NCBI GenBank assembly: GCA_944384125.1
Contig: CALWSF010000028.1
Coordinates: forward strand, 1-46,658
Origin: an uncultured Lachnospiraceae bacterium
Lineage (GTDB): Bacteria; Bacillota; Clostridia; Lachnospirales; Lachnospiraceae
Direction of reading: 5' to 3'
DNA: 46,658 bases
Under the pieces are notes generated by a model. The model worked only from the letters and a program-made list of their open reading frames with translations, was not told the origin of the DNA and searched no databases. Both the position numbers and the translations under genes were made by a program. Each line of letters opens with the position of its first letter. The stretch's first letter is position 1. Below are positions 3,197 to 12,032 of this stretch, piece after piece.

Positions 3197-5248
3197 TTAG
3201 TAATTTACTGCTTTTCTCTCAAAAAATGCTCTGGAAAATCCACACGTGGGGCAGGTCTCCGGGGCTTCTTTGCCATAATGCAGATGTCCGCACTGACGGC
3301 ACATCCAGACAGTACTTTCCGTTCCTTCAAATACCTGATTATTCTCCATACGGCTAAGCAGTGTACGATATCTTTCTTCATGGGACTTTTCAACGGCAGC
3401 TACGCGCTCAAACTTTTCTGCAAGCTCAGGGAATCCTTCTTCTCTGGCCTCTCTCGCCATGCGTACATACATATCTGTCCACTCATCATTTTCTCCCTGT
3501 GCTGCAGCTGCCAGGTTTTCAGCGGTTGAGCCGATTCCATGAAATGCCTCATACCACATTTTTGCATGCTGGCTCTCCTGCTCCGATGTCTGCATAAAGA
3601 TCTCCGCAATCTGTTCATAACCTTCCTGCGCTGCCTTCATTGCGAAATATTTATATTTATTTCTCGCCTGGCTCTCTCCCGCAAACGCCTCCATCAGATT
3701 TCTTTCCGTCTTTGTTCCGGCATATTTGCCGGCCCCGGCAGCCGGTGCCTCAGTAATCTCCTCGAACTGAGAAGCCGGTGCCTTGCACAGCGGGCATACG
3801 TAATCTTCCGGCAGATTCTCCCCTTCATATATGTATCCGCAGATTTTGCATTTGAATTTTTTCATTTCGTTTTTCCTTCCTTTCCCGAGATCTTCACTTC
3901 TGTCTGTATAATTCGTGTGCAGCATCTGTTCTGCAAGTTCACTTAGCGGCTCTTTATAAAATTCCTCATAGAGCCGGATTATTTCCGGGTTTGCATAGCT
4001 GGAACGCAGTTCCATTCCGGCATCTTTCTGATACAGTGCCTTCATTCTGTTTTCATGAACTGTATCCGATGTCATCAGGTATTCTTTCGGCTGCCCGCCG
4101 CCGCCGATGCACCCGCCGGGACATGTCATAACCTCAATAAAATCGTACTCAGCCTGGCCGTCTTTCAGTTTTTCCAGCAGAATTTTCGCGTTCGCCGTTC
4201 CATGTACAACGGCCGCTCTCAACTCCACATCGCCGATTTTTACCTTGCTTTCTTTTATGCCATTCATTCCCCGCACCGGTTCAAAACTGAGAAGCTGAGC
4301 CGGCGGAGCAGACTTTGTGACCATATAATAGGCGGTTCTAAGAGCTGCTTCCATCACGCCGCCGCTGTTTCCGAACAGAACACCGCCACCGGACGCGCGT
4401 GACATAAACTCATCATAAATTCCATCTTCAAGATGAACAAAGTCAATATTCTCCTCCTTCGCCCACTTCGCCAATTCTCTTGTCGTAATGACATAATCCA
4501 TATCTCTCATATCATCTATGCCATGATAGCGGGCCGCAGCATTCATCTCCCCGCGCCGAATCTCAAATTTCTTCGCGGTACAGGGCGTTACCGCCACATT
4601 GACAATTTTCCGGGGATCCAGATTTTTCTGAGAGGCAAAATACGTTTTAATCGTAGGTCCCTGCATCAGAATCGGACTTTTTGCCGTAGAAAGATTGTCT
4701 GTCATATCCGGAAAATACGTCTCAACATATCTTACCCATGCCGGACAGCAGCTGGTAAACTGGGGAAGACGCTCTCCGCTTCCAATCCTTGAAACCAGCT
4801 CCGCAGCCTCCTCCATAATCGTCAGATCTGCGGCAAAATTTGTATCAAGCACATAATCAAATCCCAGCCTGCGAAGCAGCGCCGCCATCTTTCCTTCCAC
4901 GAAACTTCCTTCCGGCATTCCGAAAGCTTCGCCGAGGGCAACTCTGACGGAAGGAGACGTGGAAATGATCACAATCCGTTCCGGATCCCGGATCATTCGT
5001 TTGACTTCTTCATACTCATACCGTTCATGGATGCTCCCCACCGGACAGACATTGGCACATTGCCCGCAGTTTATACAGACTGCCCTGTCTCCCGTTTCCT
5101 CCAGTGAATATGTACCGTGAACAGCAATTTTCTCCTGACAGACATTCTTACACATCCCGCACTTAATACATAAATCTTCTTCCCTGACAATAGACGGATT
5201 ATCCGGATCAATCGCAACTCTGACGCTCAAGTCCATATGCCTGCTCAT
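3197..5248 (-). CDS. [FeFe] hydrogenase-rubredoxin-rubrerythrin fusion
   Basis: The single 683-residue frame joins two redox enzymes. Residues about 24-70 hold two 4Fe-4S ferredoxin motifs ([22 protein letters not shown]). Residues about 85-445 are the H-cluster domain, with [16 protein letters not shown] and [16 protein letters not shown] supplying the cluster cysteines. Residue 462 begins a rubredoxin-like domain (CKICGY...CPLC), followed by a rubrerythrin diiron helical bundle ([26 protein letters not shown]) and a second rubredoxin at the end (CRQCGH...CPTCG). Known chemistry: the first half interconverts protons and H2; rubrerythrins reduce H2O2 to water. The inference is an H2-linked peroxide reductase. 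A normal HydA would stop near [10 protein letters not shown]; the linker LGKGRKNE encodes a ribosome site. The gene stands alone under an operator-covered promoter. The start has a weak ribosome site; M5 is an alternative. Confidence 0.9.
3863..3883 (-). promoter_or_regulatory. Internal ribosome site and ATG for a free rubrerythrin
   Basis: Inside the fusion, AAAGGAAGG (3875-3883) lies 9 bases before an in-frame ATG at 3865 that begins the rubredoxin-rubrerythrin part (222 residues, [11 protein letters not shown]). The signal sits exactly in the linker between the two enzymes. It may allow a separate rubrerythrin to be made beside the full-length fusion, and it looks like the relic of a formerly separate gene. 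Confidence 0.55.
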
Positions 5249-5298: not shown

Positions 5299-5346
5299 TA
5301 GTAATTATTACTAATATTAGTATACACATTTTTTTCGTGATGTCAA
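5299..5346 (-). promoter_or_regulatory. Promoter with overlapping Fur/PerR-like operator
   Basis: On the minus strand TTGACA (5341-5346) and TATACT (5319-5324) are 16 bases apart, a near-consensus promoter. Directly downstream of and overlapping the -10 are two dyads: ACTAATATTAGT (5310-5321, perfect) and TAGTAAT-T-ATTACTA (5299-5313). The second has the 7-1-7 form used by the Fur family (PerR, Fur, Zur). A bound repressor would cover the start site. PerR control would suit a peroxide-reducing product, but which regulator binds is inferred. Confidence 0.65.
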
Positions 5347-10795: not shown

Positions 10796-11128
10796 GTGGC
10801 ACGTAAATATGATCATGAATACAAAGTACAGGCAGTAAAATTTGCCAAAGAAATCGGCGGCGCTAAGGCTGCGAAAGAATTAGGAATCCCGGAAGGAACT
10901 ATCCATACATGGCTGAAAGCGGTAAGAGCCGGTAACTTAGATATTGGGGAAGGCTCCCATACCCTTGCCAGCGCAATGAGCCTGTCAGAAGAGATTACCA
11001 TGCTGCGTAAGCAGGTAAAAGAGCAGGAGAAAGAAATCCGACGCCTGAAGGAAGAAAACGAATTCCTGGAGGAAGCCAGCGCTTTTTTCGCCACCAGCCG
11101 TCGGAGGTCAGTAAAAACCAGAGAATGA
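10796..11128 (+). CDS. IS3-family transposase OrfA
   Basis: The 110-residue protein begins at a GTG (10796). It has the helix-turn-helix of IS3/IS911 OrfA proteins (KYDHEYKVQAVKFAKE...AAKELGIPEGTIHTWLK) and a leucine-zipper-like helix (LSEEITMLRKQVKEQEKEIRRLKEENEFLEEASAFF). OrfA binds the element's ends and joins OrfB to form the active transposase. It is intact. Its stop overlaps the orfB start by four bases (ATGA), so the second protein would be made by coupled translation or frameshifting. Because orfB is broken, the element cannot move by itself, but OrfA could still bind related copies. Confidence 0.9.
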   Translation: MARKYDHEYKVQAVKFAKEIGGAKAAKELGIPEGTIHTWLKAVRAGNLDIGEGSHTLASAMSLSEEITMLRKQVKEQEKEIRRLKEENEFLEEASAFFATSRRRSVKTRE

Positions 11129-12032
11129 TCTTTCTGGCTTTGAAAACAGAGGACGGCAGAATTACCGGTAAAATTTCATTTTATTGCTGGATGCTTGGTA
11201 TCAGCCGACAAAGCTTCTATAAATATCTCTCGAACAAAAACCGTCCCTGGAAGTATCAGGATCTGGCGGATGCCATGAAAGAAATCGTCAGTGAAGATGA
11301 ATGTAATGATACTTATGGACGGATCCGGATGTATCAGGCGTTGTTACTGAAACAGCCGGAAGGAGTACATATCCCCAGTGAGAGGACCGTATACCGGGTT
11401 ATGGATCAGATCGGCCTGAGCCATCGGCCAGGAAGAAAACCGAATGGACTCACAAAGGCAGACCGGGAGGCTATGAAATCGGAGGACTGCTGAAGCGGGA
11501 TTTCCATTCCGATGTTCCATTAAAAAAATGTATTACAGATATCACAGAGAGCCCAGCGTCCAATGGGAAACTGTATGTATCTGCGATTTTTGACTGCTTT
11601 GATCTTAGCGTCCTGGGTCTGGCAATGGAAACAAATATGAAAGCGGATCTGTGTATCCAAACATTGGAAAATGCCCTGGCTGCTTATCCCGCACTGGAAG
11701 GCGCTGTCATCCACAGGGAGCGTGGGACACAGTATACTAGCGAGTCCTACCGGCAGACCATCCGGAAGCACCACATCCACCAAAGCATGAACAGTGCCGG
11801 AGGACGCTGCCATGATAATGCACGCTGTGAGAGTATGTGGGCCAGAATGAAGACGGAACTTCTCTACGACCGTTATGACACCAAACAGATGACTGTAGAG
11901 GAACTAAAAGTACTCATTTGGAGATATTTTCTCAGTTATTGGAATAACCGGAGGATCTGTTCTGCCAATGGCGGACTTCCTCCCATGATAAAACGCAGGC
12001 AGTATTATGAGGCTTTGGAACTGGCAGCATAG
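11125..12032 (+). pseudogene. IS3-family transposase OrfB, frameshifted
   Basis: The first part (11125-11493) holds the HTH_21 region (CWMLGISRQSFYKYL...RIRMYQALL). A base is missing near 11488, where GAC-CTG-CTG is expected but GAC-TGC-TGA is read, so translation stops. The other frame then continues LLKRDFHSDVPLKKCITDIT through the DDE integrase core to 12032. Repaired, it would be 302 residues. The first Asp (ITDIT) and the Glu (DNARCESMW) remain. The middle motif, normally HSDRG, reads HRERG, so a catalytic Asp is also changed. Two independent lesions show that it is old. Confidence 0.88.

Follow-up and report, generated by a model that had tools for sequence, protein, structure and literature searches.

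The window analysed here is a stretch of 46,658 nt, contig CALWSF010000028.1 of assembly GCA_944384125.1, from an uncultured Lachnospiraceae bacterium. Its gene hydR encodes a chimera in which an [FeFe] hydrogenase is followed by a rubredoxin, a diiron rubrerythrin domain, and a second rubredoxin (Table 1). The first-pass annotation had read this order as a single frame with its cluster, iron, and diiron ligands intact, and both points hold. The frame runs for 683 codons without a stop, and profiles of Pfam and NCBIfam recover the domains: the Fer4 dicluster at about residues 20-69, Fe_hyd_lg_C at 92-384 (1.3e-91), and Fe_hyd_SSU at 397-450; RUBY_RBDX at 465-496, with a second stretch further on, and Rubrerythrin at 517-631; and the NCBIfam model RuberyRbr over residues 509-683. 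Every expected residue is present and invariant in an alignment of 18 rows, namely the F-cluster cysteines (27, 30, 33, 37, 58, 61, 64, 68), the H-cluster motifs TSCCP (165-169) and TPC (221-223) with C376 and C380, the eight rubredoxin cysteines (467, 470, 485, 488, 650, 653, 666, 669), and E525, E558, H561, E586, E589, E620, and H623. We take these residues to be the ligands of the clusters, the irons, and the diiron site. The positions at which a stop codon might have separated the two halves (3866-3890) contain none in frame; this stretch is the Shine-Dalgarno (SD) segment before an internal ATG.

Table 1. Features of hydR and its upstream region, in window coordinates
Feature	Position	Strand	Basis
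hydR, [FeFe] hydrogenase-rubredoxin-rubrerythrin-rubredoxin chimera	3197..5248	-	ORF with ATG start, 683 aa, 76.8 kDa; Pfam/NCBIfam
Two-[4Fe-4S] F-cluster ferredoxin-like region, about residues 20-73	5030..5191	-	Fer4 models and invariant Cys
H-cluster domain and small-subunit-like tail, residues 92-450	3899..4975	-	Pfam; L2 motif TPCTAKKFE at 221-229
Internal SD-like sequence AAAGGAAGG	3875..3883	-	9 nt before internal ATG; duplex energy -8.1
Internal ATG in the hydR frame (codon 462), where the hydrogenase and rubrerythrin halves meet	3863..3865	-	Sequence; ATG and SD in 51/51 chimeras
Putative second product, free rubredoxin-diiron-rubredoxin rubrerythrin, 222 aa, 25.4 kDa	3197..3865	-	Comparative evidence
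N-terminal rubredoxin-like domain, residues 465-496	3761..3856	-	RUBY_RBDX
Diiron rubrerythrin domain, residues 517-631	3356..3700	-	PF02915
C-terminal rubredoxin-like domain, about residues 646-677	3218..3313	-	Second RUBY_RBDX stretch; NCBIfam 647-675
Sigma-70-type promoter, TTGACA-16-TATACT	5319..5346	-	11/12 matches
Predicted PerR/Fur-type 7-1-7 operator TAGTAATNATTACTA	5299..5313	.	Inverted repeat without mismatch, shortly after the -10 box

The same genome encodes the HydG maturase (961 bits) and another hydrogenase-like ORF (588 aa, 45% over 13-451), which is a possible source of H2. Elsewhere in the window, at 10796-12032, two ORFs resemble a transposase pair, IS3-like as judged by eye from their translations. 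To our knowledge, hydrogenase II of Clostridium pasteurianum (CpII) has no rubrerythrin half. Among the proteins matched in a sequence search of the PDB, 174 residues of HydR (510-683) align to 175 residues of 9fj2 and to 187 of 1ryt, presumably the D. vulgaris protein, and none of the 60 matches listed, of 102, covers both halves. By these aligned lengths, the rubrerythrin of the window is of the dimer type, lacking the 13-residue loop that separates monomeric from homodimeric rubrerythrins (PMC11926857).

The closest published counterpart is HydR of Clostridium perfringens (CperHydR), which contains an H-cluster, two [4Fe-4S] clusters, two Fe(Cys)4 centres, and a diiron site (PMC11926857). 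It comes from a different organism but likewise joins both halves, with the same cofactor sites, in a single chain, and it has a short dimer-type rubrerythrin and an uptake-type L2 motif identical to that of the window protein; the uptake-type motif of CpII, TPCTAKKYE, is also similar (quoted in PMC11926857). Purified CperHydR reduces H2O2 with H2 at about 442 per min, and its bias towards H2 oxidation is near-complete, with almost no H2 evolution (PMC11926857). The domain order itself appears in the Fig. 1 legend of PMC6984386, where one hydrogenase sub-class is drawn with a rubredoxin-rubrerythrin-rubredoxin domain identical in order to that of HydR (sub-classes named as in Meyer 2007 and Calusinska et al. 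2010); of eight sub-classes screened there for H2 production, M2 and M2e were taken further. The main idea of the first-pass annotation, a route for electrons from H2 to peroxide, was therefore correct and already in print, as were such fusions in clostridia, which it mentioned, and the order of their domains. The direction, which it had marked as inference, has experimental support because it was demonstrated in the homologue. As the fusion is known, the window protein is a new member of it; the internal start signal and the operator described below are additions to that first account.

The search of genomes and tally of architectures that had been proposed used a 10-row alignment of chimeras as query. 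Together with the loci collected first, it gave 58 open frames that match almost the full length of the query, in which the gene of the window occurs twice and four others are second copies. Setting aside the second copies (L001, L135, L120, L173, L155) and L012, an open frame of 687 aa, leaves 52 different fusion loci; removing L148, in which the N-terminal rubredoxin is absent, leaves 51 chimeras with both rubredoxins. Within the family to which the window belongs, 13 of 299 genomes, its own among them, carry an open full-length chimera; the corresponding figures are 5 of 206 for the family of L015, 4 of 244 for the order of L009, where one more chimera lacks the first rubredoxin, 18 of 61 for the family of L017, 2 of 24 for that of L016, and 3 of 150 for that of L023. 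Two further chimeras of the window's family have a broken frame (genomes G037 and G214). The samples at the level of class and phylum (391 and 398 genomes) gave no full-length chimera besides that of the window, and G222, a genome of the same genus, gave no match at the search threshold. L123 and L124 are chimeras with one extra rubredoxin, three in total. A frame joined by faulty assembly or sequencing from two genes would explain why the junction resembles a gene start, but we reject this explanation, to which we give almost no credence, since the stop-free fusion recurs at 52 different loci and the homologue has been produced and isolated as a single polypeptide (PMC11926857).

A putative start signal at the domain boundary

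In the window, the sequence GGAAGG lies 9 nt before an ATG that opens the first residues of the N-terminal rubredoxin. The duplex energy of this internal site (-8.1) is better than that of the gene's own start (-5.2), and none of the 27 other internal ATGs is as good. The pattern was first seen in the initial loci, and 40 of the 51 chimeras were collected only afterwards. In all 51, an in-frame ATG with an SD energy of -5 or lower precedes the first rubredoxin cysteine by 4-9 codons, and in 40 of them 7 nt separate this ATG from the SD core. An energy of -8.5 or lower is found at 45 of the 51 junctions, at 37 of the 51 true starts, and at 20 of 986 other internal ATGs. The signal of the window is weaker than most, its gene being one of the six without an AGGAG or GGAGG core. 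Such a core followed after 4-11 nt by an in-frame ATG occurs at the junction in 45 of 51 genes, whereas the rest of the 106 kb of ORF contains 29 in-frame sites of this kind; 19 of the 51 genes have at least one of these other sites, and 13 have another internal ATG with an SD at least as strong (one in 9 of them, more in the rest). Three loci outside the 51, read separately, also have SD and ATG (L100 and L113, with broken frames, and L189, an open second copy in genome G086), and L012 has the SD with a GTG.

Could the linker peptide alone account for this signal? Synonymous shuffling gives a mean energy of -7.67 versus -9.8 observed, and the observed mean was reached in none of 200 shuffles. 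Gene by gene, the same test is weak (p <= 0.05 in 3 of the 51 chimeras) because the linker residues themselves favour A/G-rich codons. The linker peptides are unlike one another (GGKKM, KKEDIVM, EKENKEM) because the SD is read in different codon phases, and the nucleotides are thus kept more than the peptide. Where the linker has a pair of glycines, the first, which lies inside the SD, is encoded by GGA in 29 of 29 genes, compared with a background of 1200 GGA among 2416, and the second varies (18 GGA, 8 GGT, 3 GGG). One clade of 14 members, which is not that of the window, has a mean pairwise four-fold identity of 0.54 (range 0.39-0.89); in it, a single one of the 32 columns of invariant glycine keeps an invariant codon, and this is the glycine of the SD. 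When all degenerate residues are considered, 55 of 340 invariant columns keep one codon, so an invariant codon is not rare by itself and the comparison restricted to glycine is the sharper one. Judged by these comparisons, the SD and start codon at the domain boundary are kept beyond the needs of the peptide, with conservation at the codon level in the one clade.

The mRNA around the junction is predicted to fold weakly (-3.0 kcal/mol, versus -5.5 at true starts and -9.4 at other internal ATGs); its GC content is 31% versus 41%, and this richness in A+T lowers the folding energy by composition alone. SD and ATG occur in 1 of 13 hydrogenase-rubredoxin proteins without a diiron domain (L102; another of the 13, L118, ends inside its rubredoxin), and this contrast is weak because only 2 independent supported pairs were available on the tree for a test of association between start signal and diiron domain, a number with which significance is impossible. 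A fusion to a flavodiiron protein (L023) has only a poor SD and ATG, 13 codons before the rubredoxin cysteine, a fusion to a glutamate-synthase domain (L103) has a weak one (-5.6), and L148 has none at its junction. The free rubredoxin-rubrerythrin-rubredoxin genes of L063, L064, and L068 begin at the same position as the internal ATG, the first two with a similar SD. Taken together, the sequence comparisons indicate that two proteins are probably made from the gene of the window, one being the chimera and the other a free rubrerythrin of 222 aa. One gene giving two proteins through an internal methionine start has a parallel in Cas11b, which arises by internal in-frame translation of cas8b (PMC11899642); that system is archaeal and unrelated in function, and its small product was reported, whereas ours is predicted.

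The signal might instead act on elongation, with the SD-like sequence slowing ribosomes and so aiding folding rather than initiation, and its site exactly between two independently folding halves fits this idea. Pausing, however, needs no start codon, and the in-frame ATG is present in 51 of 51 chimeras, with the 7-nt spacing in 40; the mRNA at the junction is unstructured, and the similar boundary of the hydrogenase-rubredoxin proteins mostly lacks the signal. We consider pausing very improbable.

History of the fusion

In the tree of the hydrogenase, the distribution of chimeras requires 15 changes, at least 6 of them on supported branches; in that of the rubrerythrin, it requires 6, at least 4 of them so placed. 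The trees suggest that the history of the family included several fusions, losses, or swaps of modules. The hydrogenase of the window is sister to that of L107 (75%), which is hydrogenase-only, with the chimeras L009 and L010 and a further two hydrogenase-only proteins as neighbours; the rubrerythrin of the window clusters with those of the same two chimeras. The positions of L161-L163 differ between the two trees, which suggests an exchange of modules. The rubrerythrin half was also lost: behind the stop of the hydrogenase-only gene L104 lies a stretch of about 48 nt that matches the 3' end of a rubrerythrin gene (blastn against L091, E 2.5e-10), and this remnant identifies L104 as a deletion derivative. 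The arrangement expected before fusion, a hydrogenase gene followed by a rubrerythrin gene, was not found beside the 29 hydrogenase-only loci, where no rubrerythrin ORF of at least 150 aa is present in flanks of mostly about 1.5 kb (under 160 nt in L143 and L175). In the locus of L063, whose hydrogenase is more distant, a free rubredoxin-rubrerythrin-rubredoxin gene lies more than 3 kb from the hydrogenase gene.

Because fusions, losses, and swaps appear to have been repeated, some of the signals at the junctions may be leftovers of genes that were free until recently. Generalised to the whole family, this becomes an explanation with a single product: only the chimera is made, and the SD and ATG at the junction are what remains of the start of a rubrerythrin gene that was fused. 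The shared start position and similar SD of the free genes in L063 and L064 are compatible with it, as is the different placement of L161-L163 in the two trees. Several observations make it unlikely. The SD glycine codon is the sole invariant one of 32 in a clade whose four-fold sites have diverged to identities of 0.39-0.89; the start codon is ATG in 51 of 51 chimeras, and the GTG of L012 is also a start codon; at least one hydrogenase-only gene, L104, arose by deletion; and 0 of the 29 hydrogenase-only loci have a rubrerythrin ORF of 150 aa or more in the flank covered, the more distant L063 having such a gene more than 3 kb off. We retain the reading with two products as the likelier one.

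Promoter, predicted operator, and candidate regulator

The region upstream of hydR contains 6 promoter-like sites, versus 3.5 expected, and the one given in Table 1 scores best. The palindrome TAGTAATNATTACTA that follows it occurs in exact copies in 4 of 188 loci searched (L001, which is the gene of the window, L064, L103, and L106), in the three others shortly upstream of a free rubrerythrin gene (L064), a hydrogenase-glutamate synthase fusion (L103), and a hydrogenase gene (L106). With at most one mismatch, it is found upstream of 12 of 97 hydrogenase-family genes, that of the window included, versus about 0.1 expected from shuffles and 0 of 291 windows internal to ORFs; this motif was chosen after inspection, because the signal appeared only with the palindrome of the window and its variants, and the window is itself among the matches. 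A strict definition of PerR-like palindrome gives 14 of 97 upstream regions (0.66 in shuffles, 0 of 388 ORF windows) and a looser one gives 27 of 97 (5.0 in shuffles, 5 of 388 ORF windows), of which at least one, L010, does not look PerR-like. The upstream sequence was shorter than 400 nt in three loci.

The operator matches the B. subtilis PerR consensus at 11 of 14 positions. Palindromes of the same 7-1-7 form are contained in the PerR sites AtCAGTAATtGTTACTGgT and AATAGGAATCGTTCCTGTT listed for Desulfovibrio upstream of perR-rbr-rdl and rbr2 (Table 7 of PMC545781); those are predictions in another phylum, and for hydR of the window the motif points to a regulator of Fur/PerR type. The canonical B. 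subtilis PerR box shows no excess upstream of the 51 chimeras (3 of 51 versus 4.2% in shuffles). Among other regulators, Rex can be set aside (0 of 51 upstream regions with a near-perfect box, no excess), as can a Fur box (1 of 51); FNR-like sites matching at 8 of 10 positions are about twofold enriched (20 of 51 chimeras versus 21% in shuffles).

Gene neighbourhoods add to the motif. Judged by similarity and by eye, 11 of the 51 chimeras are preceded, at a distance of 1-73 nt, by a same-strand gene of the Fur family; two of these regulators were scored and fall below the NCBIfam cut-offs for PerR. In 3 of the 51, a free rubrerythrin gene lies 15 nt upstream. The genome of the window has four matches to the Fur family, assigned at the family level (PerR or Fur), one of which is beside a rubredoxin-rubrerythrin gene: at L185:1495-2602, a Fur/PerR-like gene precedes the rubredoxin-rubrerythrin gene, with imperfect operator-like repeats upstream. 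Control of hydR by PerR is what we infer from the motif.

A proposed peroxide defence with two candidate products

We think it likely that hydR is an oxidative-stress gene under control of a Fur/PerR-type regulator, with two protein products, a chimera that reduces peroxide at the expense of H2 and a free rubrerythrin of 222 aa. Peroxide would relieve repression of the gene, and ribosomes would start both at the gene start and at codon 462. In the full-length protein, the H-cluster would oxidise H2, and the two [4Fe-4S] clusters and then the tethered rubredoxins would relay the electrons to the diiron site, where H2O2 would be reduced to water, as it is in vitro by the C. perfringens homologue. 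The start at codon 462 would yield the rubredoxin-diiron-rubredoxin peroxidase alone. Since the rubrerythrin is of the short type, whose four-helix bundle forms as a dimer, the free subunit may pair with the chimera, or it may be an extra peroxidase fed by other rubredoxin reductases.

A broader proposal, towards which we lean with less assurance, has two parts: that hydR is a one-gene, two-protein peroxide defence in which internally initiated rubrerythrin subunits would assemble with the chimera, the cell setting the ratio of H2-fed to separately fed peroxidase; and, more widely, that this family of uptake hydrogenases would be the H2-oxidising donor of the PerR regulon in anaerobes, repeatedly joined to enzymes of oxidative stress (rubrerythrin, flavodiiron protein, rubredoxin-glutamate-synthase protein). 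The partners are of kinds reported to be under PerR control elsewhere (PMC11841134): in a C. difficile strain with a point mutation in perR, rbr1, perR, rbo, and a rubredoxin glutamate-synthase-like gene were raised, and in C. acetobutylicum, PerR controls reverse rubrerythrins and flavodiiron proteins.

Other donors might dominate in the cell, with reduced ferredoxin feeding the hydrogenase half or an NADH-fed rubredoxin the diiron site, and H2 making a minor contribution. Rubrerythrins can draw on the pyridine nucleotide pool and free rubredoxin, as the introduction of PMC11926857 states, and the authors of that study leave other functions of CperHydR possible. The near-complete bias of CperHydR to H2 uptake and its H2-dependent reduction of H2O2 (PMC11926857) argue against this option, as does the presence of the same L2 motif in the window protein, and we regard it as improbable. 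The reading we prefer is still that of an H2-driven peroxidase.

If the two-product reading is right, the novelty is a second start signal in every examined gene of this layout. Work on the purified chimera would then have covered part of the native system, and an account of how CperHydR behaves as monomer and dimer may have to include the free subunit. The operator would provide physiological grounds for a role in peroxide stress, which the published work had left open. In the main text of PMC11926857, "PerR", "codon", "internal", and "truncat" each occur 0 times, and in the open-access literature, covered mostly as titles and abstracts, we found no internal start of hydR, no control of hydR by PerR, and no hydrogenase-flavodiiron fusion.

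Two of the other fusions, each found once and in a draft genome, hint that anaerobes may employ H2 more widely as a reductant for defence. In a MAG of Oscillospiraceae (L023:5001-7757, + strand), a protein of 919 aa joins the hydrogenase to a rubredoxin and a flavodiiron protein (ODP beta-lactamase and flavodoxin domains), and it is possibly an H2-driven O2 reductase. At L103:241-3087 (- strand), a protein of 949 aa joins it to a rubredoxin-like stretch, recognised by eye, and a glutamate-synthase domain, with the exact operator just upstream. A third fusion, of 829 aa (L132:379-2865, + strand), has an Oxidored_FMN domain of the old-yellow-enzyme type N-terminal to the hydrogenase. Finally, the hydrogenases of this type in L102, L125, L144, L150, and L151 carry, by eye, three or four tandem C-terminal rubredoxins that are much alike, with no diiron domain.
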